Source of the DNA: Coffea arabica
Taxonomy: Eukaryota > Streptophyta > Magnoliopsida > Gentianales > Rubiaceae
Direction of reading: 5' to 3'
Assembly: GCF_036785885.1 (NCBI RefSeq)
Contig: NC_092312.1
Span: 13,348,001-13,412,000 of the forward strand
DNA length: 64,000 nt
Shown here: one piece after another, positions 5,071 to 64,000 of the stretch
Layout: every line of letters begins with the position of its first letter
How positions within the stretch are numbered: position 1 is the first letter of the stretch
Notes under the pieces: generated by a model
What the model was told of the DNA's origin: nothing
The model's database searches: none
The model's input: the letters and a program-made list of their open reading frames with translations, nothing else
Program-made: the position numbers and the translations under genes

Positions 5071-5135
5071 GCTACACATTCGATCTTCCCAAGGCTTTCC
5101 AAGTATCAGAGATTGACATGCTGCCATGAAAGAAG
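5058..5135. repeat. 13-bp direct repeat at the duplication breakpoint
   Basis: GCCATGAAAGAAG occurs at 5058-5070, at the broken end of the BAHD relic, and again at 5123-5135 inside the duplicated unit. The unit joins BAHD sequence directly after the first copy. Confidence 0.6.
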
Positions 5136-8656: not shown

Positions 8657-8731
8657 TATTGCTCAGACAACAACCAAAAGTTTAACTATGTAATATTACT
8701 GCGTGGTACTATCATGGTTGCTTGCTATGTG

Positions 8732-8739
8732 ATTATATA
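8732..8739 (-). promoter_or_regulatory. TATA box of GDSL copy A
   Basis: TATATAAT on the minus strand lies about 80 bases before the ATG at 8656. The same element stands at the same distance in copy B. Confidence 0.5.
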
Positions 8740-37640: not shown

Positions 37641-37648
37641 TATATAAT
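37641..37648 (+). promoter_or_regulatory. TATA box of GDSL copy B
   Basis: TATATAAT 76 bases before the next coding ATG region (start codon 37724), conserved with copy A. Confidence 0.5.
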
Positions 37649-37723
37649 CACATAGCAAGCAACCTTGATAGTACCACGCAGTAATATTACATAGTTAAAC
37701 TTTTGGTTGTTGTCTGAGCAATA

Positions 37724-39841
37724 ATGGGTGTCAAGGGCACGAGTATTGGTGCTGTTTTCTTTGTTATTGCATCTGCTTTGCTGCTTCTTTCTCCTTCACC
37801 ATCCGCTCATGCAAGTCCTCTCCTGAGTGCCTGCCGTTTTGATCAAGTGTACCAACTTGGGGACTCCATATCAGACACTGGGAATTTGATCAGGGAATCT
37901 CCACTTGGAGCCGCTTTACCTTTCGCCAGAAATCCCTACGGTCAGACCTTCTCCCACCACAAAGCCACCGGCCGTTGCTCTGATGGACTTCTCATGATTG
38001 ACTACTTTGGTAAATATATATATAAGATTCTTTTGATCTGCCCTTCCCGCTGTTAATTCTTCATAGTATTGCCAACCAACTTGCAATAGCTATTTTTTTT
38101 ATTTGTGTGCGTGTCACAATTCAGGCTATTTTAATTTTTTCTTCGTCTGGTTTATTCTTGTTTTGAACACTTGATATAGAGCTTTGCTTTTTATCAACTC
38201 ACTCCATATCTGATTGTCTTTTCTGGGACAAAATCTGGCAAAAGATTTCTTTCTTTCTTTCTTCTTTTTTTTTTTTTTTGTTATAAATGCTTTGCGTGGA
38301 GGACGTAGATGCCAATGAGTTGCATGCATGATGGAAAAAATTCGAACTATCGCCGTCTGGTGTGTTACAAGGAAATTTAGAGTGTAAATTATCCAGAGTA
38401 TTATTATTATAGTTCTTGGCTGCCTTAACTGAAAACCATGCGCAACTCTTGCCCTGATTATCCATTTAGTTATACTGGTTAACCCTGCAGCATTATGTTT
38501 ATCTGCAATCTTCCGCTGATGTTCCTAGTGGTGATTCATCATCGATGTTTGCCTTCCATGTTTATTTACTTATTTTTGTTTATGTAGGCTATCATAATCA
38601 CATCCGCTAACTGAATATTTGGATCGTTGTTTTAACACAGCCCAGGCGCTGGGTCTACCTCTCCTGAATCCGATCAAGGATACAAAGGCAAATTTTGAGC
38701 ATGGAGCAAATTTTGCCGTAGCCGGTGCTACGGCACTATCATCAACTGTTCTTGCTCGTCATCATGTTAGAAATCCAGTGACCAACAGTTCCCTTGACGT
38801 ACAGCTTCAGTGGATGAAAGATCACTTTCACAAATTTTGCCACAATGGTAGATTCAAATTTTATATATGTGTCGTGCATTCGATCGTGACAGTCATTCAA
38901 CTTTTCTCAACTTCTATTAACTTTTTTTATTTTTTGGCATGACACTGAATTTTGTCCCTTTTCTTTTTGTTTAACAGATTGTGAAAGGAAGCTTCAAAAC
39001 GCTCTATTTATGGTTGGTGAAATCGGAGGCAACGATTATAATTATGCATTCCTTCAGTACTTTGATGAGGCTAGAGATACGCTTAGAATTCTAGAGTTGG
39101 TACCTCTAGTTGTTGCCAAAATTAAGCATGCTGTTGAGGTTAGCTTTTGCAGGCTCCTCCTCTTCTTGTTAGCACTCTTGCTGCTTTTAATTCTCTTGCT
39201 TCTAATTCCTTCTCCTTTTCTTTCAATGTTGTATTTCAGAAAGTGATTAGTTTTGGAGCAAGGACAATAGTGGTTCCCGGGAACTTTCCAATGGGATGTC
39301 TGCCAATTTATCTTACAAAGTTTGGGCTGGAAAGCGAAGCAGGCGAGTTCAACGAGAATCATTGCATATGGCTATTGAACAGCTTTGCAACTTTCCACAA
39401 TGATCACCTGAAGAAGGCGATTGCCGAGCTGCACGAGAAGTACCCATATGTAACAATCGTCTATGGAGACTACTACGCTGCATATGAACAGCTTCTCAAT
39501 CTAGGTGAAACTGAAGGTAAGTTTGTTAGTATTTACCAGTTTGAATTCTTAAAAGAAATCAATTATTTCCAGTAGGAGGAAGGGGTATCTGAAGCATCCA
39601 CATCTGGTCATCTAATTTGTTTGTCTTATTAGGTTTTGAGCTACAAAAAGCTTGTTGTGGAGTTGGAGGGCTGTACAACTTCAATGAGACGCGAATGTGT
39701 GGATTTCCAGGTGTTAAGGCTTGCCGTGATCCCGAAAGATACGTCAGCTGGGATGGAATTCATTTAACACAGGAGGCTTACCGCATGATAGTGGATTGGT
39801 TGCAAGCTGATCTTTTCTGGAAATTGCGTTGCCATCATTGA
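37724..39841 (+). CDS. GDSL esterase/lipase, copy B (acetylajmalan esterase-like)
   Basis: Exons 37724-38009, 38641-38847, 38978-39138, 39240-39516 and 39633-39841 encode 379 residues. Signal peptide about 1-30; Ser48 in GDSISDTGN; Asn183 in GGNDYNY; Asp351 and His354 in the last block. All splice sites match the inverted copy at 6558-8656, although the donor of intron 4 is GTAAGT here and GTATGT there. About a dozen residues differ between the copies, for example residue 29 (His here, Asp there), ARHHVRN against AHHHVTN, and SEAGEFNENH against SEVDEFDENH. All family blocks are retained in both. As with copy A, the enzyme class is secure and the substrate unknown. Confidence 0.9.
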
Positions 39842-41666
39842 ACAATTCTTCAAGCTCCTACAGTAGTAGTAGTACTCGAGTCCCAGTTTGCTTTTTCAGT
39901 CCAGTAGCTTAGTTTAGTTTTAGCTAATGGGAAGCTCTTGTGTGACTAATTTCGTCACCAACTGTTTGAGCACTTACTTTTGTATGAAACTTTTTCAGTT
40001 TTTATCGTACTGGGTTCAAGATTATGAAAATTTTATCTAGTTCTTGGCGAAAAGCTCTGTAAACTTCTGCCAATCCAAGCATCAAGGCGTCTAACTTAAG
40101 GAGCAAAAGAATCAAACCCACAAATTTTATGTATCAAATGTCAATACTGAAACAAATGCACCAATAAGCTGATTATCAAGGTCAGGGCAGCACTGCGTAT
40201 TTAATAACAAACAAACTTTCTACATAACCGGCTAATAAACTCAAAAAACCCAATCTGCAATCAGGTGTCCTCAACTCTTGAATCAAACACAAAGCTCGGG
40301 AATGTAGTAGTGATGTCGAGCAGGAAGCGATGCATCAGATCTTCTATGTACATGTAACAGAAGTAGCAGATATTCCATTTCACGCTGTTGTAGTTTTTGT
40401 ATAGTTCGTTAACGAGCATTAATGGGCTTTTTCATCTCTCCTCTCATTATGTTTGCTTGTCTAGAGAGTAGAGGCGTTTTATCGCATGTTATGGCATATC
40501 TGCAACATATCTGCAAGAAATTGCAGAGTTTCATCAGCGTCATCATGCCATAAACCGAAATACGTGAATCAACAGAACCAAATCTGTTTTTGGCAGAACA
40601 TACAATGCAAAAATATACTTTGTACCCTGCAAGTGCAATCCAGATAATTAGGTCATGCCTGCATTCTGTTTTTACTTATTGGATCAATATTGTGTCTCCA
40701 AAGTACAACCACTCCTGAATTTGGCCAATCGGTATATCATAGCAAGACTAAGTAGGAAAAAAGGACCAAACCGTACTAATTATATTGAGGAATGATTTGT
40801 ATTGTCTGTCAACAGCTGAACCTTGAGCTTGATTTGGCTAAAAAGTGCTTGTCATGCCATTTACTTATATGAGATTGAATCCAAACTTATGCTCAAGTTT
40901 GAGCTCAATCAGCATCCATCAAATAAAATAAAGCTTGAATAATATAATTTAATATTTTTTGTCATTTTTAATAAGGCATATAATTGGCATTCTGCTAAGA
41001 TAATTTAATATTTTGGATGAGGTAAGATTAAATTATGACATTCCACCAAATATTTCACCCTGACTTGTCACTTGCTGCAACTATAATATACACGATAACA
41101 TTTCCAGCACGAGGACGAGTTGAGGCTCTGGATTGGGGGCCGAGGATCTAAAGTAGGATAGCAGTACAAGATTGCCTGCTCGTGACTTGTAATAAAACCG
41201 CACTCATGCAACTTTGACATGCTCAGTAGTACTCAGGTCTTCTTTCATGGCAGCATGTCAATCTCTGATACTTGGAAAGCCTTGGGAAGATCGAATGTGT
41301 AGCTGTCTTAGTACTCGATTGCAACTTTGACATGCTCTGATTTCAAGCTCAGCATGCATCTCCTAGACACTGAGACCAATTGAGAACAAATGCTCAAGAT
41401 ACAGGAGTCGGGAGTTTTTTCGCTTGCATTGGTCAGACCAGACACGATTGGACCTTGGTTCAATGGCCAGTTTGAAACTCTCCCGTCCACTAGGTCAGGA
41501 TCTAGTACATCACATCGCACATGAAGCATATCGCTTTTTGTTCTTAAAAAAATTCAGATGGAGCAGCAGTGCACTTGTTTAGTCAGATGATTCACCCTCC
41601 AATTCTTATACAAGTGTCTTTAAGCTCCCTCTCTTCCACAGAATAGGAGTAAATTAGATAGTTGTC

Positions 41667-41700
<34 letters not shown>

Positions 41701-41978
41701 GCATTGGCAAGACTAGAGATTGGGCTGTCATTTGAATTCAATTTTTTGAATTGGGCTCAACATGGTTAAGGTGTCTGAATAGCCGTTCTTCATGTTTTTT
41801 TGAATTGCACTCGTAGGAAATATTTCTGCACTATGCTTAAACGATAAATTTGGTTCTCAAATTGAATTAAGAAATTTGAATTTCTTTTTTGCTATTTTGA
41901 TTTTGATTTTTGAGCAAATAATTTGGAATTCAATAGTTAAGAAGTTAGTGATTCCATGATGATATAATTCCAAAAGTT

Positions 41979-42502: not shown

Positions 42503-42534
42503 CTAGGTTTGGCTTCCCACGCGAGGCGTGGGAG
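42503..42534 (-). repeat. Helitron 3' terminus with subterminal hairpin
   Basis: On the minus strand an 8-bp perfect stem with a 3-base loop is followed by GCCAAAC and terminal CTAG, next to a T. The local GC content contrasts sharply with the AT-rich surroundings. Confidence 0.75.
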
Positions 42535-42959
42535 CTTTAGACCTGTTCGTAAGTTTCTCCGCCATGCAAAAGTAGTATATATTAGACTCATGCATATGTT
42601 GTAGGCTTTAAGTTTTTTTTTTTTTTAATTTGATTTAAGATTAATGTAGAGCTATTCAGACGTGTTCAAGCTTTGAATATTGGTTATACAAAATAAATAG
42701 CAGCACAGAGGTTCAGTGAAAAGCTGGGTTGTAAATTCAGAGGATATGGAGCTCAAATTGTCACGAGTAATTATGCACGGGTGAGTAAAGGGTAAAAGTG
42801 GAACAAAACGTGTACGGCAGAACTGATGCAAAACTGATAGAGTGCACTCCTTGTTATAAAAGTTGAATAATAATGTCTATGGTGCTATAAAAAAAAGTCA
42901 ATAATTGACGGCTTACTGTACGTTTGTTTGGTGCTAGCCTACTACACTCGACGAGCTCA

Positions 42960-43444
42960 ATTTCTGTTTTCTCAATCTTCACTGCAATGGTAGGTCAACC
43001 CACGTCCGTCCGCCGCTGACCTTCCTCATCATAAATTAACAAGAATAATATACTCCACTCTCTCTCTCTCTCTCTCTCTCTTCAAAATCCCCAATTTTTG
43101 CATTTAGGGTTTCACAAATCGTCATCTTTGTAATCAGCGACCGACATAATCAAGCATTGCGAAGAGCTTAATTGCAGTTTTAAGGAGAATTACGAAGCGG
43201 GATTTGCGATGCCGCGAAGATGAGAGGAGGGGTACGACGACGAGATGATAACGGCGGAGATTGCATTTGATTGATGATTTGCCAGAGGAAGATGATAAGG
43301 GAGAGGAGGAAGACCATGATGATGAGGATTACGGCGGTGGCAGTGGAAAGAGGAATGCAAAGAAGAGGTCGGGGTCTCATTTTTTTGAACTTGAAGCTGA
43401 AGTTGATAGTGAGGAAGAAGAAGATGAGGAGGAAGGCGAAGATG
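42960..43444 (+). pseudogene. SPT5-like transcription elongation factor, captured promoter and first exon
   Basis: The translated part between 43261 and 43444 reads IDDLPEEDDKGEEED then KKRSGSHFFELEAEVDSEEE and ends EEGEDG before a GT. This acidic N-terminal layout with a GS-FF-LEAEVDS core is that of plant SPT5. The ATG at 43209 begins MPRR as in SPT5, but the next codon in that frame is a stop; a shift would be needed to reach the acidic region. Upstream lie a leader-like stretch and a CT microsatellite. The KOW and NGN domains are absent, so only a 5' fragment was copied. Its direction is opposite to the Rep-helicase gene. Confidence 0.6.
43058..43081 (+). repeat. CT microsatellite in a captured 5' leader
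   Basis: About 12 CT units, a typical plant 5' UTR element, lying 130 bases before the SPT5-like start codon. Confidence 0.7.
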
Positions 43445-45434
43445 GTCAGAATCTCATTCAGTTTATTTTGTGTGAATTGTTACTAATATTTGAAATTTAC
43501 TTAATTATACGTATCATTCACCATCATTAACTGTCGGAATTTACAGTTAGTGTTTTGCGGAATATTTGTGTGGAAAACTGGTGATATTTGGTGGAAACTT
43601 TGGATAAATTTTTAAGCTTTAGGATTTTTTTCAGGAATAACAATATGTTGCATAGTTTGATAGGAGAACAGTGTGCATGAGTTTTATATGGGTTGATGAT
43701 GTTGATTGTCCATCGAAAATTTTATTTTTTTCCCTTTGGGTCTATACTTTTTTCTTGAAATTGATGTCATATAAAATTTTTCGATGGTTTTTGAGCATCT
43801 TCCGCTATGGATTGAAATGGGGCAGAAAAATTTTGGTGGTTTTTTGTGGATCTGCAGCTATGGATGAAATGTTACATGTAATTAATTGAGATTAGGCTGG
43901 TTAGTGGACTGGTAAAATGTTTATAGTTAAACGCTTTGTTGTTAGTAAGTTGAAATAAGGTCTGAACATTTGTCCTGTGAATCTGAAATACAATCAGAGT
44001 GAAAGGAATATTAGCAGCTTAGGATTTCGGTTTAGAAATTTAAAATTTGTTTTCTGGTACACTGGAAAGCCAATGTAATGTCTTGTATTGTTGTTTTCCA
44101 GCTTATCATTCTATTGTTGGCTTTTCTGAGAAAGCACTTTACAACATTTTGAAACTTGATGTATGAAACTCAATGAGTGGATGTGGGTAAGAAATTTGTC
44201 AATTGAATAAAGATGGAGAAAGGAATATGTGAGCTTTCTCTGACTCTGCTGTCCATGAATTGGCTTTCCTCCATAACGTACAGTGATTGCAATGTGAGTT
44301 TAAGTTGGATAGATTCTGTTTCTTCACCTCATTAGAGTTTCAAACCAATTTGGGTTGTGTTCTAGTATTGAACTTTACAGAATAATCTCGGCACATTGAA
44401 ATTTAAGTGTAAAGCATGTCCGCTAACAATATTTGAGAACTGAATTTGTAGTTAGATCTATCTTAGTATGTAGCTGATGTGTGCATTTGGTGTTGACTCA
44501 TTGCAAATTGTCAATCTTCTAGGGTGATACACAATGGTTATTCATTGCAAATTGACTCATATGTCTTTTTGCTACTTGCATTAGGTGGTGTTCATAAAAA
44601 CGGCTGTAGGAAGCATGACAGTTGAAGTGCCAGAGGACAAGCTAAGGAAGTATATGAGTTGATTCGAGTACCAAGATTGGTTAAAAAGAGTAAGAGCAAC
44701 AACTGCAGTTACTTTGTTATGTTTTTTGTTTGAAATCAGCTTTATTGTCACATTCCTTTCACCAGTGATGCTAAAACTGCATGTATGTTGTTAACTGTTC
44801 TGATTGTTATCGAGAATAATTTTTTTCAATTGCTATCTGTTAAATGAGGCAAGAAATTGGCTTACTTGAAATGAATTAGATAGCCAAGTAGGTACACACA
44901 CAGTTAACAGGAATAAACTACCTCAATGCAGTGACAGTGGAATTATTGGTTTCAGTCATCTGATGTCAACTATATCTGATGTGAAAAGCTTCACCAATGA
45001 TATGGTTTCGCTGACATTAGTAGCAGTACATGATATGGCAATCGCAAGAGCTGGACTATAATGAACATGTGAATTATATGATTTAGAGAGCAAGGAGGTG
45101 ATTTGAGCAGTCCGCATTTTAAGGTTAGCTACTCAATCAGATGGATTGATCAATATCTGTATTTTTATCAATTGTCGTACAAGAGTTTAAAAAAATTTAG
45201 AGCAAACGCACCATATGAAAAGTTGTTTGGAGAAGCAAAGTCTTGATGTCAAATTTTTATAGCTCAGAACATAAACCATAAGCAAGTGGCAAAACTAAAT
45301 GTAAGAGCAACTAAGCAACTGAATTTTGATTTCTCCTTCTCACAAATAAGGAAGTATTCATTAAATTTTTAATTCAAGAATATCATCAAGAATATCTTGA
45401 TTAGAAGTTTCTAATGCTGCCAAAGTGAGACTAA
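43445..45434. other. Helitron interior with no resolved gene
   Basis: Continues from the SPT5-like exon as intron-like T-rich DNA. At 44586-44659 there is a short exon-like stretch (VVFIKTAVGSMTVEVPEDKL) preceded by TGCATTAG and ending in a stop; I cannot place it in a family. Confidence 0.35.
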
Positions 45435-46788
45435 GGCTTAGTTTGGGAGTTTACGAAGGAAGAGAAAAGAAAAGAAAAGAAAGCTTAGGAAAGAAAGGAA
45501 GAGAAGGGAAAAGATGCATATTCCGTTTGGGAGTTTAATGAAAGAAAAGAAAAGAAATATCTTTCCCTTGTTTGAGAGTCGGAGAGATATGGAAAGAAAG
45601 GATTTTATGAGAATACAACTTTACATATTTACCCTTTCAATTTATAAATCAAATTCCAAAAATTAGCTTTCTTGTTCCCATAAATAGAATATTTGAACAA
45701 GACAAATTTCTAAAACAATTGCATTTGCATTCCCACAAGGTGAATAATAAAACAAATTTCTTGCTAGACTTCGATTCTCTTGCATGCATGTAAATCGCCT
45801 CAAGTCCTTGTAGTATCTTTTAGGTATTCTTGACATATGATTTTTGATATTGGCCGGAAATGCCAAGTAGGTTATCTATATAACATAAATTAAATATTTT
45901 TTAAAAAAGAAATATCCCATAAAGTACTAGCTCTTTATGGCTTTTCTCTATTACATGAGCCAAGTACCAGGTTTTATGGATATTTTATTTTGAATCATTT
46001 AATTTATGTTAAATACATAAATATTTGCAAATAAAATTCAAAAGCCGTTACACAAATATTTTTACGAAAGGAAAACTAGCATATTTTGTATTTAATATAA
46101 ATGAAGTGTTTGAAAGTAAAAAAAATTTGTCCATAACATACCAGTTCTTTACGAGTTTCTTTCATTATATGAATAAAATACTAGCTATTTATGAGCATTT
46201 TACTTTGAATCATTTAATTTATATTAAATACATAAATTTAATTAAGCCAAATTCAAAAAGTGTTATACTAATATTATTACGAAATGAAAACTAGTAGGTT
46301 TTATATTTAACATAAATTAAATACGTGAAAGTAAAAAAATAAAAAGAAATTACCCATAACATATCAGTTCTTTATGGGTTTTTTCTATTACACAAAATAC
46401 CTTTTGTTTGGTGAATTACTGGTGAAAAACGGAAGAAAGCCAAGTTTTCTCAACTTGCTGGAAGTATTGAAAGTACAGGACACATGACCGAGAAAGCTTT
46501 GCGGTGCTTTTATAGAAATCAATTTTAGGATATATTGGGAATAATAAATTTTTGTATCAGCTTTTAAAGGGCAAACTTGACATATTAAAAATGTCTTTTG
46601 GAGCCCAACAAGTTTCCGTCCTTTTCTTCCCACTTTTGGGCGGAAACATTTTCAACAATTGGAGGTGGACTTTTATCCATTCATTTCACTTCTCTTCTGT
46701 CTTGTTAAACTCCCAAATGAAAGAAATGACCGTTCTTTCTCTCTGAATACTTTCTTTTCTGTCCTTTTCTCCCTATCCAAATGAAGCC
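45435..46788. mobile_element. PIF/Harbinger-like non-autonomous element nested in the Helitron
   Basis: Inverted ends GGCTTAGTTTGGGAG (left) and GGCTTCATTTGGATAG (complement of the right end) are flanked by the direct repeat TAA (45432-45434 and 46789-46791), the hallmark of PIF/Harbinger. Purine-rich GAAAAG tracts follow both ends. At 1,354 bp it is long for a Tourist-type MITE but encodes no transposase. Confidence 0.7.
45900..46395. repeat. Internal tandem repeat, period about 215-220 bp
   Basis: The motif CCATAAMRTAYYAGYTCTTTA recurs at about 45917, 46131 and 46353, with matching AT-rich DNA between (CATTTAATTTATRTTAAATAC). Two full units and part of a third lie inside the Harbinger-like element. 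Confidence 0.65.
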
Positions 46789-46849
46789 TAAGGTAGCTAC
46801 TAAGCTGAATAACCTGTGGGAGACAATTTTTTAAAAAGGTGGAAAAGCT

Positions 46850-48623
46850 AAAAGCTAAAAGTCTGTACTCTTGTGTTCCCGAGAACGTTGGATAAAGTTC
46901 CTGTACATACCAATGTGAGACAGAGAGAATAAAAGCAAAACTCTCAAGAGTCTAATCAGTGGATGATTGATTGATTCAACATCATTTTTACACAGTTGGC
47001 ATATGTCAGCATTAAGAAGGTGCTCCTTGACTCTGTATTTCAACAAGTTATTGTTAAGTGATTGTTGGGCTATGTCTTCATAAGTTTCAATTGCCTTTGG
47101 ATATCTGCAGGGCATTATGAGTATCAGTTTTAAAGACACACACACACTAAATCTTGTGTATAGGGTAAAAACAAAAAGTCTTATGAAGTAATCTTAGTTT
47201 AGCTGGCACTCAGTCTTCCTAACCTTAAAACTTTAGTACCATCTTTTCATTTCTGCATTTACTTTTTAGTTTTCTTGACATAAGCAAATTGGGCAATTTT
47301 CTGTTCCCACTGATTTGCAGTGGTGTTGATACCTTCACTTTGGAAAAGATCAGCTGCTCTCTCATAGTAGACAATAGTCTGCTCCAAATTCTCTTCTTAC
47401 TCATATAGTTCAGCAATTTCTTAGATTCAAATAAAGGAATCAATAGCTAACACTCAAAAGGAAACATAGATTAAGAGATAAAAGCAGATATCACAGCCAT
47501 CATGGCATGATAGACAGTAAATATATAGCATCGTAGGTTATGAGTTCTGATAAGTTGACCAATAGTCTGTACGTATTGATGTTACAATATGTCGAAAAAC
47601 TTTACATGAGACATGAAAACTTTACATATGAATCACAAAAGTATCAAATCTATCTAAAAGACATTCTGTTCTTTCAGAAAAGAGAAATGAGCTTCAAGAA
47701 TAAGATGGAAGATGACTACAGAGGCAAAAGATATTTTATTTAGGTGAAGTGACATAGATTGCACCTTGTAGTATCTTGTGGACATATTGAGCCTTGCAAT
47801 TTCCAAGAACAAATTCACGGACTGCTCCAAGGAAGATATAGACTGTGTGAAGAATAAAATTATTAGCCATCAACAGTTCGTAAAATAAAAGCTCTATAAT
47901 CTAAGTGAAAAGATGATGGCTTAAATCCCAAATTGGGATTGGATGAAAATCAGAGGAAGAAAGGAACAAGAATATCAAAACAGATAAAAGCTAGGCTGGA
48001 AATTAGGATTAAAAATAAATTTCATTGCATTTCTTAAGTGCGGTTGAATTTGCAAAGATGGGATTTCTTTAGTGCGGTTGCATTTCTTTAGTAGCGCTTA
48101 TTAGCAAAAAAAGATGGGATAAAATTGGCTGATGAAGAAACCAACTGATAATATGAGAAAGAAAGCAGGCATAGGAAATAAAGTTTAAGACAATATTTAA
48201 TCTACTTTTTTGGTGTTGAAGTATGGACAAGTTCCTAAAAACATCATGTAATCAATAACTAAAAACTAAGACTGATCTTCAATTTAAGCTGAAACAATCA
48301 GCCACCAGATGAATGATTGTATTGAGTGATAACTGACAGCTGTAGTCTGAGCTCAAACAATGTGTCAAAACTGGTAAGAGACCAAACCTTTAATGTTTGT
48401 CTTCTTATAGCAATGAGTGGCATCAGCATAAGCATTTGCAGCTTCATGTTTGCTATCCAACTGTGATATCAAAATTACGAAATTTGGTACAGCAAACGAG
48501 AACAGCTACAGAATTGATACACAAAAATAGGAGGTAGATAAATCCAAGCAATCAACAACTTTCGAATACTTACCTTCAGATGACAACTTGCCAACTTGAC
48601 ATACATAGCTCAAGCTTGATCCC
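46850..48623 (-). pseudogene. Alpha-SNAP gene fragment with introns, captured by the Helitron
   Basis: Five exon-like blocks in order on the minus strand match the TPR-like body of alpha-SNAP: YVKLASCHLK (48623-48574), [20 protein letters not shown] (48460-48388), SLEQSVNLFLEIARLNMSTR (47842-47765), EIAELYE..EENLEQTIVYY then AADLFQSEGI (about 47427-47270), and [20 protein letters not shown] with [14 protein letters not shown] (about 47108-46930), followed in another frame by [16 protein letters not shown]. Stops interrupt the first block (TGA) and the fourth (TAA), and a shift separates the last part. The N-terminal exons and the C-terminal region are missing. Introns are kept, so capture was from genomic DNA, not cDNA. 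Alpha-SNAP recruits NSF to disassemble SNARE complexes; this copy cannot. Confidence 0.82.
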
Positions 48624-51079
48624 CTGAAAGACCCCAAAAGTCAAAACTAATGAGAAACAGCAGCAGAATTCAGCTTAATAAATTTACATACTCTGAGTCA
48701 ATAAATGTTAGTCAGGAATTACAAATCACAATTATCAGCCACTTCAAGAATTTGAAAGGCTTGATTTCCATTTACCAAATATGAAAACAAAGAGAAGGAG
48801 TGGCAAGTAATGTTAACATACATCAAGGGTAGGGAATATACCCTTTTACAAGTTTGGGGAAGCAAAAGTATGCACTTAATAGTTAGAGAGTTAAAAGTTG
48901 ACCAACTTAATAATTAGAGAGCCATCCAAAATTTTTACCCTCTGCTTTTTTATACATTGGAAATTAGAGAATGAATAAATGAGAATTGAATTGTCACATA
49001 CTTGCTAAGGAGAGTTTGAATGTCTTTTATTTAAAGTGGCACATAGAGAAGAAATAAAGGAGAACTGAGTATGCCATATACTAAGAAAAGTCAAATGCAT
49101 TTAAGCTAAAGTGGCAATTGAACAAAGGTTAGTCTATAGTGATAAAATCAAAAGTTGAGATTTGGGGGTAAGGCTAACAAAGATGAACATTTGTGGTTGT
49201 TGAGGAAGTCTCCTTAAAGTTACGGTTGATACTCTGGAATCACGCATTTTAGGTTTGACAGTAGTTCTTTTATTTTTGATAATCAATCAGCATAAATAGT
49301 TTCCTTTGGATCTGTGTGGGAGACATTTCTTTCAGAATTTTGATTACATTTCTTTCAGCATAAATAGCTTGGTGTTCATTGTTTACAAGGTCAAATGCTA
49401 TTTGAAGTTGCCAATAAAGCATTAATTTTGTCTTCTGTTCTTAATAGTTTGTCAAATACAGTAGCAGTGTCTTTTGGTGTATCCAAAAGCATGAGAAGCT
49501 GACATATGCTTAAACAATCAGGCAATGGCAGTTTTTGCATCTACATTCTTTAGAATTTGGAATAAGGTTAACAAGAATGAATTACATTGATATAATTACC
49601 TGATGCTGATATTTTCTAGAGGTGATAAAATTGCGAGAGACATCACTACAATTGTGTTGGTTATATACCTACAGGGAAACTGAAAAATGAGATAATGAGA
49701 AAAAGTTGAAAACTGTAGTGTAATCTAGCGTTTCAGAAGTTTATATACATTCATGTACAGCTTTAGTTAAGACACAAAATGATATAGTAGGAAAAAATAA
49801 GTAATAAGTTGATGTGATGGTTAAAAAGAAATGCATACTTAAGTTATATAAGGTCAATGGCACTTTACACTCCAAGATTAGAAGTTATTCAACCATGATT
49901 TATTTTGTTATAAGTACAATACATAATGATATCGAACAAATTTAGAAGGCAGAACTGAACAATAATATAGCACCTAGAATAGTTCAGAGATAATCTAAAT
50001 CTGCTGATATATTGAATAGAAGCTCAAGTCCAAAGGTACAGAACAATGAGTGATTTAGTTCATCTAAATAACAAAAGATCTGACAGGGGAAACAGAGATT
50101 TGTTATAAATAATGAATGAATATGAGAGCAAAAGAACTTAGGCTTCCTCTTCTTGAAATGCATTATACATAAGCTGGTAAAATGACTAATATATTAATGA
50201 AGCAGATGAGTACTCTGTAGAAGTGACGTTTAAAAGAAAAGTTTATAAGGATTTGGAGTTTTAGATCTCAACCTGGGATCATAGTTATTGCTTTTAGAGA
50301 ATTAGAGATACAGGAAAAGCATCTTTGAATCTTTGAGGCTAGTATTGCAGCTAGTTGTCTCTGAGCCTCATCAAACTCTTCATCTTTATATACAGTCTCA
50401 CTGCAAAATGATAAACACTGAGCAATGAATTTTTTGAATATAGAATTACGAGAATGAGTAATATTAATTCATAATCAGTGTTCTGTACGTACAACTACAA
50501 GAACCAGTAATGTTAATACGTAATGAATTTTCTGAATATATAACTATAAGAATGAGTAGTAAGAGCAGTATCATGAGAGTTTAGCAATAACTAATATTGG
50601 GGTATAAAAAAGATACTCTGTGAACAAAAGCAGTAATTACTTGTATGAGTTGTAAGAAAAAGGTCAACTAAGACATTGCAACAACAAAAATGGCCCTGAT
50701 GAGAGGAGATCAAATGTAATGAACACTAACCTTTGTTTTTTGAATATCTCTTAAGGACATTTGTCATTATTTGCATTAGCAATGAAGCATAAGCTTTACT
50801 TAATGCTATATCTTAATACAAGAATTTTCTTATTACATATACTGAGACATCAGTTGGCTGAAAAATTGAAGCAGTATTGAAAAATAAGTATTTTTTTACA
50901 AAAAAGTTAAGCATGAGTTGTCAGTGAAATCTGGTAAGTATAAAAGCAAGTGAAATCTGCAGCAGTGCACAACAAATAATTGGGTGTTAAGCTTTGATTA
51001 GTGCAGATATATAGCTGTGTAGAAAAGGTAGGGGCAATAAATGTAATGAATATGAATCTCACACTCTTATAATCAACAA
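48624..51079. other. Helitron interior, no resolved gene
   Basis: AT-rich DNA 3' of the Rep-helicase gene. One exon-like stretch on the minus strand at about 50402-50326 reads ETVYKDEEFDEAQRQLAAIL followed by ASKIQ after a TTTTGCAG acceptor-like motif. I looked for an RPA-type OB-fold gene, common in plant Helitrons, and did not find one. Confidence 0.35.
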
Positions 51080-54000
51080 TTATGAAAGGTGATGATTTGC
51101 AAGCTGTAAAATATCTTTGTATACTATGTTATTGGTAGCATAGTCAACTGTTGGATCAAAGGGAGAAGGCTGTATAAGAATCTTTACACAATTGCTGCTT
51201 TTTGCTCTTGATAAAGCAACATATAGTTGGCCATGTGAAAAAACTGGTTCACGTAAGTATATACCAACAAAATCTAAAGTTTGACCTTGAGCTTTATTGA
51301 TTGTCATTGCAAAGCATAGACGCACTGGAAATTGAATTCTTTCAAATGACATCGGGCAATCAGGATTATTTTCTATTCGGAAACATATTCTATGCAAAAA
51401 GACTTGTTTGCCTTTGAATTCTCCAGCACTTATAACTGCATCAATAATATTGTTAGTCAAAGATTTACATATTAGCCTTGTTCCATTGCATAAACCTTCT
51501 GGGGGATCAATGTTTCTGAGAAGAATTATTGGGCAATTTGGTTTTAGGATAAGGTTGTGGGGGGGAAAACCATTGGGTGTTAAGCTGTTGAGAAAATCTT
51601 CAAATAGGCCTTGTTCTGAAATGTCAAGTGTTTTATCACGACTAATATATTCTTGAGTCTCACCTGGAAAAATGTTAATTAACAAGTTGTTTAACACATC
51701 AACAAATTCATTTTTTGTAGTAAGGATTGCTCGATTTACCAATGAAAAATCATCCTTGGAAAAAGCACTTAAATCTGGGTAAACTGTTTTGATAAGTTCA
51801 AAAATTGATTCTGTTTCACTTTTGTATGGTATTAGCAGTGGGAGAGGAATTTTTACTTTTAACCCTTGTATTGCTGGTTCTAGTCCATTTCCTATTCGGA
51901 GAAGGTAATCTGTAAATTCTGGGTCTGATATTGCTCTCATATTATCTGTGAGGTATAGTTTATGAAGCTGTGGCCAAATGTATGAAGTTACTAAGCTAGC
52001 TTGTACAAAATCTTCCTTTGAACCTTTAGTGACAACAGGGAGAACTTGTCTAAAGTCACCACCAAAAATCATAACTTTTGAGCCAAATAACTCAGGAGAA
52101 CCCATTAAATCTTTTAGTAGTGCATCCACACCTTCTATACCAGTTTTGTGTGCCATTGGAGCTTCATCCCAAATGATAAGTTTAGCCGCTTGAATTAGTT
52201 TAGCAAGTGCACTTTGTTTACTAATTTTACACATATTGACTGAATTCATATCAATTGGAATCTTGAATCGAGAGTGCGCTGTTCTACCTCCCGGTAATAT
52301 TGATGCTGCAACTCCACAAGAAGCAGTAGCTAATGCTATAAAGCCTTTTGATCGTACTTCAGCTAATAACGCTCGATAAAGAAATGTTTTTCCTGTGCCA
52401 CCTGGTCCATCTATAAAGAAACATCCTTTTTCTTTAATGTATAATGCCTGCATTATAGTATCAAAAGCTGCTTTTTGACCAGGATTGAGTTTAGTAATTG
52501 ATATCAAGTCATCCTCTGAAACTTTAATCTCTGTTTCACTAATTGTATCTCTTGCATCTGTATTTGAGTCATGGAATTTTAGTACTCTTGGCACCAGTCC
52601 ATAGCTGTTTATGTTACGACCCATAGACTCTAAAAAATTGCTTATTTGATGCAGAACTTTAAATTGAATATCATTTTTGGTTAAATTTGGGACTCTATTG
52701 TAATCTTCAGACAATGATTCTTCAAATTTCAGCCATAGGGTTCTTGGATTTGAGGGGGTAAAATATACCAACAATGTTGCAAACAACCTTCTTAGGCTAT
52801 ATGGCATATGATAAAGGGCAGCTTCTTCTAGACATTGTTCTTGTGAGTTATTTGATTCTAAATATCCTCTAAGTGCAGCTGCTTCGCGAAATGTAGTAAC
52901 ATGTACTCCATTTACAGTTTTTAAATCATCATAAGAAGTTGGACTTTTAACATGCAGTAAAAGGAGTCTTAGGAAGTACCGTTCACCTTCTAGGGGATTT
53001 GCTGCAACAACTCTGCCGATAGAATCTTTTTGTTTTCTAGGTTGCCAAGATTTGGAACTTGGATACCACACAAAATGCTCAGGAAACTCTTTGTAGGTAC
53101 ATTTGAGACTTTTTGCAAAATCATCTGTAGCATTCATTCGAAAAAATTCGGTGAGCATAGTTCTTTTTGCAAAATTGTTACTTAATATATTGTCAAGATT
53201 ATCATTTGGTCGAAACAGCATAGATTGAAAGTTTTCTAGGTGAAGCTGAAGTTGTATTACAGCAGGCTGCATTTCATAAAGATGAAATCTGTATATTCTC
53301 CACATTGCTTCAGGTGCACATACCCACCGTGCTGACTGATATTCTTTGATTTCATCAATAGGATTTGCTCCATCATCTGAATTCACTTGAAAATGTATCC
53401 TTGCATGGCCTTTGTATATATACTTATACACATACTTGACAGCTTTAATTGTGGAGCAAATTTCTACATTTATATGGCAATTGAATTTAGCCAACAGATA
53501 AGCATTGTATGGCACTACCCATCTGTTGTCTAAGTAGTGTCCCCGAACCAATATTTTTTTCCCATCATTTCTTCTTCTGTATGTTGGATACGAATTCTGA
53601 GAATGTGTAGTTTTTTCTGCCCATGCTTTTGGGTAATTGTTCTTGCAAGACTTCTTTGATGCACCCTGCATACATACATTATCAGGTTTTTTCTCGCCAC
53701 ATGGTCCATGCATCATATGTTTCTTGACCATTCTAAACAGATGCTCATTTTGTGCTTCGTCGGGTATTTCTGCAGAAACTATACGATCATAATCTTCTGT
53801 TGTATATAATTTGAAAGCAGGCTTCAGGATAATCAAAAAGTGCGCATGAGGCAAACCGCGTTTTTGAAATTCTATAACATAAGTATATGCTGCTACTTCT
53901 CCAAATATTTGCTTCTTGAACAGCTCTTCTTTCATAATTTCTAACTTTGCATGAAACACACGAGCAATAAGATCAGGCCTATTTTGTGCTTCATCTGATT

Positions 54001-57000
54001 GTAACAGATTTTCTTTAATCTCTGGCCATGATTGATTGCAAGTCATGGTTATAAAAAGATCTGGCTTCCCAAATTTCTGAACTAAAGCCATAGCATCAAG
54101 ATACCTTTTTTTCATATCTCTAGGACCTCCAATGAATGATGTAGGCAATATTACTCGCTGTCCGATTTGAAATCCATTTTGTTGCCCCTGTATTACGCTG
54201 TCCATAATTCCTTGTAGCTGCTCTCGACGTATTTGCTGTTGTCGACTTCGATAAAAATCTAGTCTTTGTGTCTCTATTTTAACATACATGTCAACTGAAT
54301 ATTGTTGCAAAGCTCTTCCAGCATTCAAAATATTTGGCCCAATTTTTTTCCTCATCTGAAATTTATATGCATAATACTCTCTCATGGATACATATTCCTT
54401 GGAGTTTTCATATGCCTTGTAAGCTGTAAAATTTAGAATATTTGTCAAAGAAGAGATGACTGCAATTGAATACAACTATACATAATGAATGGTATAAATG
54501 TGTTACCTTCTTCTTCAAGATCAATCATTTCTTCTGGTGACTTAAAGCTAGACAATGTAGCTGTACATGACTGTTTCGTAGTCTTTCTTTTGCGCTTTTT
54601 TGGATTGCCTCTTCCTGATCTTTGTATACCTGGATGCCATCCAGTTTCTCCAAATGGAAAAAGTAGTGGATACTGAAGAGGGTCATAACAGCCGTAGTAG
54701 TATTGAATGCGGTGACTGTGTCCTTCTTTTGTATATATCTGTATGTGTCTAGAATAACCTTGATTAGCATTGTCTCCTTCAACCCATAAAGCTGCAACTT
54801 GAGATACAGTGGGTTTATTAAACACTCGCTGGTCGTTGTCGGAGTGAGATTTTAATACTATTTGATATGAGTCCAGGTTTGGAACATTTCTCAAACTCCT
54901 GAAGAAGCAAGCATATGGATTGTCTTTCATTACTTCCATTAGCTTCACTACAATTCTTTCGGTCAGCCTTTCTGATATTGCTAATCGATTCTGAATTTCA
55001 TGTTCTGTGTCATGGAAATAAAGCTGAAGATACATCCCTGATCCTCCATGCAGTATTAGTTCATTGATGAAATGGTGTGTTTGACCTTGTATCTTGAATG
55101 TATAGATTCCGTTAGTTCTCTTGCAAAGGGATTTGTCATAGTGAACACCAAAGGAAGTAAATGCAAACATGCTATTATAGGTCCTGACATAGGTTCGGAA
55201 ATGTATAGCTTCTTCACTCTGTCCAGTAAAAAGTTCAATTAATATATCAGGTAACTTATTTTCATGGAGTAGAACTTCGCCATCAGAACAGCAAAAGTTT
55301 GCGGTCTCTGAGTAGAATTTTTTGGCTCCACAATATTTACAATCTGATGCATCAGGGAGATGGTCTGCATTATGGCTAATGAAATTCAGAGCCTCTACAC
55401 CAGCTGCATTTTTAGATACTGTAGAATAATAGGAATACAAAGCATTTTTATCACTATGTTATGTGCATATGAAAGAACTATAAATAAATATATAGGAATG
55501 ACACCTTTGTTTTGCACTCATACCTGATCTCCTTTGGCTTGAGCTTTTGCCTACAGAACAATAATGTGGCTAGTCAGGAGGTAAAAACGATTATGCTCCT
55601 GATCAGAGTATATAACTTCTGCAACATTTTCAGATACATTTTAGTTATACATACCTTTTGGATGATTTTTTATGGCATTAGAAACATTGGTTTCCACTGA
55701 CTGACTGCCAACTGTCATTGATATACCTGATTAAGCAAATAAGAATGTGTGAGAACGTAAATCAAATTCAGTGACCAAACAACACTGGACAAATATTTGT
55801 AAAATTAGGATCAAGGAGTTCAACCTGCAAGATCATCAACTGTTTCATGCAAGAAATTAGAGCAGCTATCACATATAGGAGGATCATCTAGCAGATAAAA
55901 GCATAGAAATTGTTATATGAAACATAGACTGATAACTATGATTATAACAAAATATACCTGACGCATTTAGTTTATTGATTCTTCTGCATTTATAGATGGG
56001 CAACTTTTTTGATGAAGAACCTATATGAACAAAACATACCTGACACATTTAGTTTATTGATTCTTCTGCATTTATAAATGGGCGAACCTATATGAACATA
56101 AGATAAAATAATACATTATAAACATAGAAGAACAAAAAATATCTATGTTTAAATGTCAAAAATTGCTTGTATAAACATAGAATACAGAAACAATTTGTGT
56201 AGATTGCATTGGTTTTATACAGAGAATTACTTTTGACACCTATAGATTGCTGCAGATTAGATTAGGTGTTCCTTCACATCCTTTAGATCCTTTAGCTTAT
56301 CAGTTGGTTCTCGTTTAGATCCTTCAAACTTTCAATTTTTTACCAGTCTGCCATACTCCATCTATGTGTTTCTCATAAGCAAGTTTAATATCCGTTGGTA
56401 ATTAGGTAAAAAAAAATTTTTTTTTGGGGAATTCTTGAATAGTGCATGCATGAGAAGTAGCTAAAAACTGCTTATCCACTATGTTATTGTTCTTTTATTG
56501 TTGTTTTCAGCTTGCCTCTTGATTTAGCATCGGTTACAGCTACGGATTGCTGCAGATTAGTTTCTTTGTCTCCACCCTGTTGTAGAAGCTGTTTAATAGC
56601 AATACTCTGTTGGTTATTGTGCTCATTATTTTGCTGTAAGTTGCACCCAACTGGAAGTTCTTTTTCCTAGAAGTATTTTTTTTTTTAATTTAGTATTAAG
56701 GCAACAAAACAGAACACTCAAAAACTTCAGAAGTAACTTTTTCTCCTCTTTATTTATCAAGAAAGTAATTTAGAAGTATGAGTGAGTGATTGTAGCTTGT
56801 TTTGCTGATCGTTAGTTGTTTTCCTTTGCATCCTTTAGATCCTATAGATCCTTTAGCTTATCAATTGATTTTTGTTTAGATTCTTCAAACTTGTCCTTTT
56901 TTCCAGTCTGCCATAACTCAAAAAAATTTGTTTTTGGGAAATTCTTGAATAGTGCATGCATGAGAAGTAGCTAAAAACTGAATCAGTTACCATTAGTAGC

Positions 57001-57153
57001 TTTCCTTGCTTTCCTCTTTTGATAAGCTTCTCTCTGTTTAGCTTGACAAGCTTCTTTTTCTTCCACTGATAAGGAAGCATATTTTTCTCTTGATCTTCGG
57101 TTGCGAATAATGTTCTTATTCGTTGAATGTGCAAGTGGATCGGTTGAAGCCAT
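51080..57153 (-). CDS. Helitron Rep-helicase (HUH nuclease plus PIF1 helicase)
   Basis: Eight exons can be joined: 57153-56991, 56087-56040, 56020-55958, 55887-55825, 55726-55655, 55550-55524, 55418-54507 and 54423-51080. Each has GT-AG borders, each intron is phase 1, and the sum is 1,563 codons without a stop. Exon 1 holds a basic block (RRSREKYASLSVEEKEACQA). The small exons carry Cys motifs (PIYKCRRINK; PPICDSCSNF). Exon 7 begins the Helitron-like N domain with CKYCGAKKFY. Exon 8 has the Rep motifs LFITMTCNQSWPEI, RGLPHAHFLIIL (HUH) and KYVYKYIYKGH (two-Tyr), then the PIF1 helicase: GPGGTGKTF, IIWDEAPM, GGDFRQVLPV, LCFAMTINKAQGQT and LYVALSRA. The C-terminus ATNNIVYKDIL is normal for the family. 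It looks whole, so the element may be autonomous. The splice pattern of the small exons is inferred from phase, not from transcripts. Confidence 0.88.
56040..56087 (-). repeat. Duplicated small exon in the Rep-helicase gene (first copy)
   Basis: This 48-base exon and the next one (55958-56020, 63 bases) both encode PIYKCRRINKLN and share flanking intron bases (GTTCATATAG upstream). Both are phase 1 at both ends, so either or both can be included without changing frame. Confidence 0.65.
56265..56980. repeat. Direct repeat pair in intron 1 of the Rep-helicase gene
   Basis: About 56265-56470 and 56825-56980 share CAGTCTGCCATA, AGTGCATGCATGAGAAGTAG and neighbouring sequence. Between them, 56665-56510 on the minus strand is an open Gln/Asn-rich stretch (NLQQNNEHNNQQ..KQLLQQGGDK) that could be an optional exon. 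Confidence 0.55.
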
Positions 57154-57574
57154 GGTTTACAGTTTATAGCATGAATAAAGGAAGCAAAAGCTAGCGGATG
57201 AGTTGAAAATACATGCAGTTGTAGATATACAAGCATCACCGATAGAACAGGGAGAAGAGATGGCTCAATTTTCTAGTCTACAACAGCAAAAGTAAAAAGC
57301 TACTGTAAAATGACTATGTTAGACATCAGCTGAAAATATATAGTCTATTCAATGACTATTTTGAGGGAGGAAAATGTAATTAAACAAGACAATGAGCTGG
57401 CTGATAGAAATAAACATCATATCTCATTAATGCTGCACAACAATCAATGTTTCACTAACATTCGGCCGAGGCTTACAATAAGCAACAATCAGTTCTAATA
57501 GCTCCAAGAAAAAACACAAGCAAAAGATTAGAAGGACAAAAATGCGGCTGTAGAGAGCAGATGAAAAAAATGAA

Positions 57575-57663
57575 CAGTGCCCAAAAACGTCTTCTTATAT
57601 AATCAGTGCCCAAAAACGTCTTCTTATATATTATAAGGATATATTATATATTATAAGGATATA
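57575..57663. repeat. Short tandem repeats at the Helitron 5' end
   Basis: A 29-base unit (CAGTGCCCAAAAACGTCTTC...) occurs twice at 57575-57632, and TATTATAAGGATATA occurs at 57630-57644 and again near 57649-57663. On the minus strand each copy of the latter offers an A|TC start. Confidence 0.65.
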
Positions 57664-57832
57664 TAGAGAAGAGTGTAAAACTTTTACATGGTTAAATAAA
57701 CAAACTAAATGATATAAAAGAAAAAGCAATATTGAGGTATTCGATTGAGGAGGGGGAGGGATGGTTGGATGTTTTGGGGGAAGAAGTATAAAGGTCTCGA
57801 ATTCGAGTTCTTCTATTTATATTAAAAAAAAA

Positions 57833-58181: not shown

Positions 58182-58944
58182 TCGCTCATCCCGTCTATTG
58201 GCTACATCTAATTTGAGGACAAAAACAAATTAGCTGGGACAAAATTGCCATTCAACAAAAATTTCAAGAGCCAAGTATTCTTGTACATGCTAATTAATGA
58301 ACCAATTTACTCTTAAAACTAATTGCAGTAAATACCACACTGATGTTAAGCGAGTACATGAGCAAATATTCTCTTCTTGAAGTACTTTTCCAAGCAAAGG
58401 GTCAATCAAGAAATAACCAAAATCCCGTGCATTTCATTTTTCCACACATTCCACGCGTTAGTTTTGGAGTATTCATATCGGCCATGATCTGAGTCTTTCC
58501 ACAATTCAAGAACTTAATGTTTAGGAAACTTCAAGCCCAATCCCATCTCCACGTTCGTCCTTTTTTTCTCTACTCTGTCGGTCTGTCCAATATTCCGTGT
58601 TCTTTGCATTATTTTTGAGTGCTTTATTCTTGATAGAGCTCACACAACAATTCAAATCAAAGTCATTCGTCCAACAAAGTCTCCCTTCACGTTCACCTTC
58701 AATGAAAGTAGTGGTGCGTTTTCGAAGACTGGAAAAACAATTTTCTACAACCTCTTATTGACCAACTCACATATGAAGGAAATAAAAATGTGATTTGCAA
58801 AACGTCTTTAAGAGTCTTCGGAGCCTTTGGAGACTCCAAAGACAGTTCTCAAACACATCAGCGTCCATATAGAGCTGAAGAGTGTCATTAAAATCCCCAA
58901 ATTTTAACCATCCCTCTCTTGCATATACCGTCACGTTAGCAATT
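58182..58944 (+). promoter_or_regulatory. Upstream region of the LRR receptor kinase
   Basis: No gene seen. The right part should hold the promoter and 5' UTR of the receptor kinase; no clear TATA box was fixed. Confidence 0.3.
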
Positions 58945-61900
58945 ATGATGGGCATGGCAAAAACAGGCAACTTCCTGTTTCTTCTTGCTGTCCTGCTATG
59001 CTTTCCTGTGGTTCCCTTAGCCAACATCAAGCGCAACATTTCCACGGATCTATCTGCGCTGCTTGCCTTAAGATCCAATGTCTTGGATCCTACACATGAA
59101 TTATTGACAAAGAATTGGACCACGAGAATGTCAGTCTGCAACTGGCTTGGTGTCAAATGCTCTTCTCGCCACCATCGAGTAGTCGCTTTGAATATGTCTT
59201 ACATAGGCCTTCAAGGTAGCATTCCTCCGGAAATAGGAAATCTTTCTTTTCTCAATTCATTTGATTTCCGATACAACAGCTTCACAGGTCGTTTGCCTCA
59301 GGAGATGGCCCGTCTGCGAAGACTCAGATACATTAATCTCAGCTTTAACAAATTTAGTGGAGAGGTCCCTTCATGGTTCGGCTTTCTGCCTAATCTTCAA
59401 TACTTGTTCATTGCAAATAACAGTTTTACGGGTAGCCTTCCCCTTTCCCTGTCTAATGCATCAAAGTTGGAGGTCTTAAATGTGCAGTTCAATCAACTGC
59501 AAGGTAATATACCCCACGAAATTGGTAATCTTGGCAAGCTGAAGATCTTGAATCTGCCAGGTAACCAGCTTACAGGGTCTATACCACCAGCCGTTTTCAA
59601 CATTTCATCTTTGCAAAGACTGTCTCTGACAGGCAATAGTCTTAGTGGTATTCTTCCCGTAAACATGTGCTTTAACCTTCCAAAAATTCAAGCCATTTTT
59701 CTGTCGACAAACCAATTTTCAGGCCAAATTCAGTCGAGGTTCAAGAATTGCTCAGAGCTCCAAGTTCTTGCACTGAGCATCAATAAATTCAGTGGAGCAA
59801 TACCAGGAGAAATTGGAAACTTAACCATGTTAAGCATAATCTCATTGGGAGATAATTCCTTCCAAGGTTTGTTACTAAATATCAGCATGTGTCATTTTGC
59901 GTTGTTGATTTTTCACAGAGATTCTCACACTGCAGCATCAAATATTGTTTTGATAATTTACACGTAAAAGTTATTTTCAAAGTTAAGAAAAAGGGGAAAA
60001 GAAACTTCCCCAAAACCCGGACTGTTAATGTACAAATATTTATACGGGATTTCTTTTAGAAAATAGCGTTTTTCTCCCCTATAAGTTATAAGAAAGGAAG
60101 TCTGGAAAAAAAAATTGCATTAGCATATTGTCCATCTACTTCAATATTCGTAAGCATTGCACATTATTGGGGTGATTTAGGCAAGCTAGAAAATTTAACG
60201 TGTTCAAAGTTAAAAAAGGGGCTGTAAAATAGTAATAATTGATGACATAAGGGTGTAAAACTTGTATTTGAAAGTGCAAAATGAGAATTAACAAAATATA
60301 AATTCAAAATGAAATTAGGTCTCTTTATGATAGTAATGTACTTTTGTTAACATCTGCTTTTATAATAATAGATTTCCGCTAGAGCCTCATATGGGGTTAG
60401 AATTTACAAACAAGTCCACGAAAGGCCTCTTGGCCAAAGTGGAAACATGCAGTTGCCTTTCATTTGTCTTGAATTTCCGAATTTAGCACACGAGGTTTAC
60501 TTGTTTTTATCTAATTAAGAACTGCTGAGAACGTAATTAATTCTCATTCTTGATTCTTAAAGTACGGCTATTATGCTCTAAGGAGTTCTCTGGCAAGCTA
60601 TATGTTTTCCCTCATAAGATTTATTTTTTTCCTCGTGTGTATAATGAACAGGTGAAATTCCGCGAGAGATAGGCAATCTCCTCAATTTGGAGATATTAGA
60701 GGTCGGATATTCTTCACTCACTGGTAATTACTAATCATCTCGATTCTCAGCTTTGATTACATTTCATCAGCTTTCTGTTTCTTCCAACTCTAGTGGTCGA
60801 GATAATTGATTGCTCAAGATCTCGATTTGTAGGGTGAATACAATTTCTTGGTTCCGAGACAATTTAGGTTGGATGTTGAGTTTTGATCGTTCATATCGAA
60901 ATTCTAACCCTTAGAGGTGGCAATGAAGAAAAACACTTTTAACTGTAGTTTGCATGAATTTTAGTTTTTAAAACATTTTTATCATTAACTCCATCAATCC
61001 CAATCTTTTGTTACTTTTCGATAATACGAGTATAAGATTAAATGTTTTGGTTATGACATTAGTGCTTTCCTTTCCAGTTTTGTCCTTCAAAATTAAAATT
61101 TTAAATTTGAATATGGCATGACATAGCATAAATGAATGACAAAACTGTTAAACACATCGTACGTAGATAGTTTTGAATTTTTTAAGATGATAAAAAGTAA
61201 GGATAAATTACATATAATTCCTTTGTGTTTTCATCTATTGCTACATGTGATCCCTCTAAAGTTTCAAAATGTCCACTTTATCTCTTATGATTTTATATAA
61301 AGTAGAAACTAGACGAAAAATAGCATATGTAACGTTGTTAGGTGACATATCGATGGTATCCTTACTTAAATGCTAAATCAATTGATGGCTTATCCACCTT
61401 GTATAAAAGTATAGGAGAATTATCTGGATAAATGCAAAAATTATAGGGGGTAAAGTGGATATTTATATAAATCATAAGGGGGTTACATGGTTATTAAGAT
61501 TATATCACAAGCCCTTTTAAAGCATGTTAGATATAAACGCCGTAATTCATTGCACATTCTAACTATTTTTCACTTTACATAAAATCACAGAGGAACTATT
61601 TTAAAACTTTAAAGGGGTCATCTAGCATTCTGTAAAACCTGAGGAGGTAATAAATAACTTACCCAAAAGTAATAGTCCACATGCCCAAAAGTAATAGTCC
61701 TCGTAAGTTGTCTTGTACAATTGGAAACACACCACAGACACTGAGAAGTGATTCATTCATTTGCTGCTCAACAAGTTCATGTTTTCACGGAGAATTCTTG
61801 CAGCCATCAGTTGTAGTTTACCAACACATACATATGATTATGGATTCTGAAGTACTGGCAAATTGCAGGTCCAGTCCCGGACGAAATTGGCAATCTTCAG

Positions 61901-63866: not shown

Positions 63867-64000
63867 GTAATTTAAAGTTTTTGCAAAAAGTTGATAGACA
63901 AATTGATATATTCATACTATTTGAGTTCTAACTTTGTAGTATACTAGTAATAACTTACGCGCTTTGCACGTGAATATATTTTTTCAAAATATAAAATCTT

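Follow-up and report, generated by a model that had tools for sequence, protein, structure and literature searches.

Large plant Helitrons that combine a RepHel gene with pieces of host genes have been described in maize. According to the available text of PMC3288121, maize Helitrons capture genes stepwise, lose internal sequence and include large RepHel elements with gene pieces; one of them, ZmhelA1, is 14.6 kb long and carries a RepHel gene without a frameshift, a remnant of an RPA gene and eight gene fragments. In rice, Mothra and its sister family illustrate how RepHel and RPA separate as Helitrons erode (available text of PMC4683698). As far as these texts go, stepwise capture with internal loss and the separation of RPA from RepHel are known already. 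Wheat Feng8 has been shown to move, and the bat element Helraiser has been reconstructed and encodes a protein of 1,496 aa (available portions of PMC13286980 and PMC4778049, respectively).

The stretch of Coffea arabica DNA analysed here (64,000 nucleotides of chromosome C3, hereafter the window) contains an element that belongs with these systems. It has both Helitron ends, is inserted between an A and a T, has open frames with the expected motifs, and is accompanied elsewhere in the genome by near-identical copies and by empty sites. In all likelihood, it belongs to a trio of young sister copies and is a canonical plant Helitron whose RepHel gene is open.

Like ZmhelA1, it is a large plant Helitron with RepHel and gene fragments, but it comes from another plant and has another sequence, and here the donors, empty sites and near-identical copies are at hand and a loss is mapped to its junction (compared with the available text of PMC3288121). 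With Feng8 and Xuan1, it shares TC and CTAG ends, a 3' hairpin, a RepHel gene with introns, the HUH motif and two tyrosines, and a preference for AT targets; unlike Feng8, whose movement was demonstrated, it is known from its sequence alone (compared with the available text of PMC13286980). TC and CTAG ends, insertion between A and T and the RepHel core are also features of Helraiser/Helibat1, which, unlike the coffee element, is a reconstruction (available text of PMC4778049). In the rice families RepHel was lost and RPA kept, whereas in the coffee element RPA was lost and RepHel kept (available text of PMC4683698).

Termini and target site

The Helitron lies on the minus strand and occupies positions 42503–57659, with bounds set by two empty sites and a canonical 5' tip at 57639. 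Canonical Helitrons carry a GC-rich hairpin ~10–12 nt from the 3' end. Such a hairpin is present in the 3' terminus (42503–42536), which includes CCCACGC-CTC-GCGTGGG and a terminal minus-strand CTAG (42503–42506) followed by a host T. It folds at −10.2 kcal/mol, whereas shuffled sequences average −3.13 (z −5.05), and none of 200 shuffles is as good. The window contains a single instance of the hairpin motif, against an expectation of zero. Genome-wide, 65 sequences match the 33-nt 3' tip with at most two mismatches (none matches the backward control), and CTAG followed by T is found at 62 of 62 family 3' tips, i.e. at the 61 of the 65 matches that were inspected and at the tip of the copy on C1. 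The flanks of these tips are not independent, as they comprise 27 distinct 10-nt sequences, one of which is common to 20 tips; the tip with this flank seems to have multiplied inside a larger repeat.

The canonical 5' tip, TCCTTATAATATATAAGAAGACG (57617–57639, minus strand), also occurs once in the window against an expectation of zero. It overlaps a 29-bp tandem duplication (1.9 copies, 57575–57630, minus strand). Twelve of 14 exact 5' tips in the genome have TC, the two exceptions being those of the C1 and C17 copies, and the base before TC is A in nine of these 12 and T in three.

The target site is visible at two empty sites, C4:13.18 Mb and C4:73.49 Mb, where the window flanks are joined as ...AAAGA|TATATAGAG... 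These joined flanks surfaced by chance in a search with the 5' region of the element. At both sites, the insertion falls between A and T and has produced no target-site duplication. The first site is likely, by position, to be the partner of the window locus (C3:13.39 Mb). The empty sites place the start of the flank at 57660, and the 20 bp that precede it (57640–57659), between the canonical 5' tip and the flank, form one unit of a perfect tandem duplication that spans the junction. Since the duplication includes flank bases, later slippage is its simplest reading, and 57639 is therefore taken as the canonical 5' tip. Short tandem duplications recur at 5' tips of this family (57575–57664 in the window, upstream of the C17 copy, and in C10a, C1 and C5) and perhaps stem from slippage in AT-rich sequence.

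An earlier note on this DNA had proposed a single Helitron with both termini, a 3' CTAG with a hairpin and an A|T target. All three hold: the first by the colinear copies on C17 and C1 and by the empty sites, the second by the hairpin statistics and the 62 tips ending in CTAG|T, and the third by the two sites without duplication. The TC-type 5' end that it described is present at 57639, but this boundary is ambiguous by 20 bp, with the insertion extending to 57659.

The RepHel gene and the accessory genes lost beside it

The RepHel gene is predicted to consist of six exons on the minus strand: exon 1 with the ATG (56991–57153), exons 2 (55825–55887), 3 (55655–55726), 4 (55524–55550) and 5 (54507–55418), whose splice sites, like those of exon 1, are predicted, and exon 6 (51080–54423), which contains the HUH nuclease, the two tyrosines and a PIF1-like helicase. 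The introns of this model are GT-AG and all in phase 1, and the 1,526 codons contain no internal stop. The earlier note had described a stop-free gene of 1,563 codons; by the spliced model the gene is indeed open, but it is made up of these exons and not of one frame, its longest frames being 1131 and 337 aa long and in different frames. Read this way, with predicted splicing, the coding capacity of RepHel appears intact.

Pfam recognises Helitron_like_N (2.6e-59) and PIF1 (1e-66) in the protein, and its match to Helraiser (PDB 7lcc) has an E value of 8.2e-250 over 1,101 residues; the part of the alignment examined includes HAH and YxxxY and stops before motif VI. The counterparts of these residues in Helraiser are H593/H595 and Y727/Y731, without which that element does not function (available text of PMC4778049). 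The combination of HUH, two tyrosines and an SF1 helicase is that of a canonical Helitron. Helentrons (Helitron2) carry an endonuclease domain with RepHel; none of the ten frames scanned with Pfam contains an endonuclease family.

By analogy with Helraiser and Feng8 (available text of PMC4778049 and PMC13286980), from which the scheme is borrowed, an expressed and catalytically active RepHel would use its HUH/two-tyrosine centre to nick the 5' TC end, its PIF1-like helicase would peel off one strand, and the enzyme would stop at the 3' hairpin and cut after CTAG. The intermediate, presumably circular, would then be inserted elsewhere between an A and a T. Of this scheme, the coffee locus itself shows only the structure and the traces left by earlier transposition.

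RepHel is open in the young copies on C3, C17 and C1 and broken by stops or frameshifts in all four older copies checked (C10a, C8, C5 and C9). The C17 protein has the same length as that of the window and differs at six residues, and exon 1 of the C1 gene is longer by an in-frame insertion of 24 bp. The dN/dS of the window gene is 0.12 against C10a, 0.36 against C8, 0.32 against C5 and 0.30 against C9 (735 codons); the values of 0.40 against C17 and 0.72 against C1 are based on very few changes, too few to speak for selection at present. A first look gave 1,854 candidate RepHel exons, of which the best 41 were scored, and 18 of these are free of internal stops. Three of the 18 belong to the subfamily of the window and 15 are 69–73% identical to it; these other families may have been active recently too. 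Six of the 15 are 1118 aa long, lie on several chromosomes and have nearly equal scores.

Older relatives carry a block that the window element does not. In the C8, C10a and C5 copies, 4.7–5.9 kb separate the 83-bp 3' tip from the 42.6-kb region, and this block, just inside the 3' end, contains an RPA-like gene and, on the strand opposite to RepHel, a 123-aa frame. The RPA-like frames score 4.5e-6 with Rep_fac-A_C (26.9 bits, below the cut-off of 28.5) and 0.0011 with the PDB profile of Teb1, an RPA relative. The block by the 3' tip of the copy at C9:33.11-33.14 Mb is unlike that of C8, C10a and C5. In the window, the two sides of the block meet at ATTAG (42581–42585), a sequence present on both sides of the block in C8. 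A single deletion at this microhomology removed both the RPA-like and the small antisense gene from the young lineage, which nevertheless went on to move.

Because these two accessory genes are gone, the element is complete in its ends and RepHel and incomplete in its ancestral gene set, which qualifies the apparent completeness claimed in the earlier note. The same note held that a full protein was kept along with captured genes and that few plant Helitrons of this size do so. RepHel is open and two captures are present, but both captures are broken by stops, and the rarity is weakened by the 18 stop-free exons and by the maize parallel of ZmhelA1 (available text of PMC3288121).

On the favoured reading, the element would move independently of other elements. 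A tentative but substantial possibility is that the element is semi-autonomous, making its own RepHel and receiving RPA-like, and perhaps small antisense, protein from other Helitrons. Within 10 kb of RepHel, an RPA-like match is present at no fewer than 35 of the 41 scored loci, mostly 1.4–4.4 kb downstream and on the same strand (a lower bound, as 36 of 183 matches, picked for nearness to RepHel, were used), and the small gene at 22 of the 41. Both genes are missing from the copies in the window, on C17 and on C1, and the missing RPA-like gene also weighs against the favoured reading. Consistently, none of the 56 block frames of at least 60 aa on both strands matches the window, except for 35 aa of 5'-tip sequence. 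Against this dependence, host RPA could serve, and wheat Feng8 is reported to be sufficient in Arabidopsis; the available Feng8 text contains no occurrence of 'rpa' or 'replication protein' (PMC13286980). A bounded and dated Helitron with known donors, empty sites and sisters that keep the lost genes makes it possible to test whether RPA is needed in cis and how captures build up.

A small antisense gene in related Helitrons

The frame of ~123 aa found in the block (C10:1153304-1153672, plus strand, in C10a) has relatives throughout the genome. All 130 candidates were scored and gave 112 matches, of which 33 cover at least 114 of the 123 residues without a stop at 40–100% identity. When 89 of the 112 matches were compared with the RepHel loci, the 22 loci with a small gene within 10 kb all had it on the opposite strand, downstream of RepHel in 21 cases and between two neighbouring elements in the remaining one. 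Two or more matches are present at 18 RepHel loci, and both the small and the RPA-like genes at 20. The C10a protein has no Pfam match, and of 16 members one reaches an E value of 0.19; there is no PHROG match, and the best PDB profile match is at 0.99.

Selection was assessed on an alignment of 23 frames, comprising 20 loci from the long stop-free matches together with C10a, C8 and C5, in which 20 of 123 columns are invariant. The median dN/dS of the 168 usable pairs (of 253; dS 0.1–1.5) is 0.305, with 162 pairs below 0.5 and none above 1. Nine close sequences give 0.06–0.24 (33 pairs). In both sets the pairs are not independent. Given these low ratios, the gene codes for a protein that is or was kept by selection. 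The constraint is looser in the window element's own relatives (C8 against C10a: dN 0.039, dS 0.037).

These data make it an evenly balanced proposition that a ~123-aa gene has so far gone unrecognised in the plant Helitrons of this genome, often as two diverged copies, antisense to RepHel, under purifying selection and of no known family, and that the window lineage, having deleted it together with the RPA-like gene, still transposed, so that neither seems to be needed in cis. If new, the gene would add to the plant Helitron gene set, and a role in regulation or in defence against the host is conceivable. The open-access titles and abstracts searched, on a further, antisense or small Helitron gene, on Helitrons lacking RPA and on Helitrons with SPT5 or alpha-SNAP, contain nothing on such a gene, and the available text on rice Mothra and its sister family does not mention one (PMC4683698). 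For a diverged pair at C18:38432514 and C17:41448172 (45–46%), two chromosomes that are presumably partners, an origin as a host gene or by domestication is conceivable.

Captured host DNA, sister copies and neighbourhood

The 3' half of the element contains two dead fragments of host genes, the donors of which were found. The first (42988–44545, plus strand, antisense to RepHel) is the 5' end of an SPT5 gene with its upstream region, exon 1 and part of intron 1. It matches C20:51254134-51255838, and equally C19, at 83–88%; its ATG is at 43209 and a stop follows at codon 5. The C20 donor is the start exon of SPT5, as judged by Spt5_N (2.2e-4, below the cut-off) and, for the rest, by eye. The second (46854–48797, minus strand, sense to RepHel) is an internal part of an alpha-SNAP gene with introns and stops. 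It matches alpha-SNAP loci on C4 and C3 at 92–93% over the main 1.4 kb and at 78–91% over shorter pieces, and the exons of the C4 donor score 2.4e-13 and 5e-20 with SNAP. To our knowledge, Helraiser carries no captured gene pieces.

In C8 and C10a the alpha-SNAP capture is longer, reaching donor position 929–930; in the window, its far end is replaced by ~0.46 kb of obscure origin (48798–49256). C5 has no match to either capture and is more distant by dS (0.116, against 0.051 for C10a and 0.055 for C8), so the captures are probably younger than the C5 split. The lower identity of SPT5 to its donor suggests that it was captured first, if rates are alike. Between the two captures lies a non-autonomous element, presumably PIF/Harbinger-like (45435–46788), with TAA on both sides (45432–45434 and 46789–46791). 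It is absent from the C17, C1, C8 and C10 copies and arrived later than the Helitron. From these relatives, the history would run as follows: the element first acquired its SPT5 and alpha-SNAP pieces, introns included, from genomic DNA; next came the deletion of the block that held the RPA-like and small antisense genes; copies of the lineage then arose on C1, C17 and C3; and the C3 copy later received the Harbinger-like element and the 20-bp duplication.

The window element has colinear copies on C17 and C1, and older copies with nested inserts on C8 and C10. Identity to the C17 copy is 99.7% across 10.8 kb and 97.4% in the 2.9 kb on the 3' side; for the C1 copy, which has two additional stretches of ~0.17 and ~0.46 kb, it is 99.1–99.2% for the greater part and 93% in the final 0.4 kb. 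Substitutions number 50 in 13,704 aligned bases between C3 and C17, 85 in 13,767 between C3 and C1 and 85 in 13,718 between C17 and C1. At an assumed substitution rate of 7e-9 per site per year, these counts correspond to ages of about 0.26 and 0.44 My. Both sisters have disturbed 5' tips, which, like the additional stretches of C1, counts against the favoured reading. That of C1 contains a TA-rich expansion; that of C17 lacks TC and adjoins the CTAG of another Helitron, and its match to the window ends at 57601. A matching 5' tip lies ~6.2 kb upstream (C17:6657020-6663245), suggesting a head-to-tail arrangement of two elements. The flank of the C17 copy is part of a local repeat cluster on C17/C18, which makes its empty site ambiguous.

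Matching positions suggest that the chromosomes are paired (C1/C2, C3/C4, C17/C18, C19/C20), which might favour spread of the three copies by segmental duplication and not by transposition. This is very improbable: similarity ends at the tips, C3, C17 and C1 have different bases beyond them, and the sites on C4 and C2 are empty (at C2:47.60 Mb, the place matching the C1 insertion, a run of TA obscures the exact joint). The element is a real Helitron that moved recently in a plant genome. There is scarcely any chance that two abutting elements are present, a RepHel Helitron ending near 49–51 kb and a gene-carrying one at 42.5–49 kb, as the non-coding tract at 49–51 kb and the changing content on the 3' side could suggest; this reading is rejected, being contradicted by empty sites that span the whole unit and by colinear copies at C17, C1, C8 and C10, and the window has a single 3' tip and a single 5' tip. 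The earlier note had named copies ending near 49–51 kb as the case against it, and none was seen in the eight relative regions fetched. A gene in the 48.8–51 kb interval was considered and rejected: two frames scanned there (49273–49440 and 50271–50468) gave nothing above the Pfam cut-off.

Two other features of the window flank the single Helitron. An inverted duplication (5065–11163 and 36631–41978, 89–100% identical by piece), the left arm of which contains a direct repeat spaced 5.1 kb, ends ~0.5 kb from it. On the other side, frames for LRR and LRR-kinase proteins (58882–63931) start ~1.2 kb beyond its 5' end.
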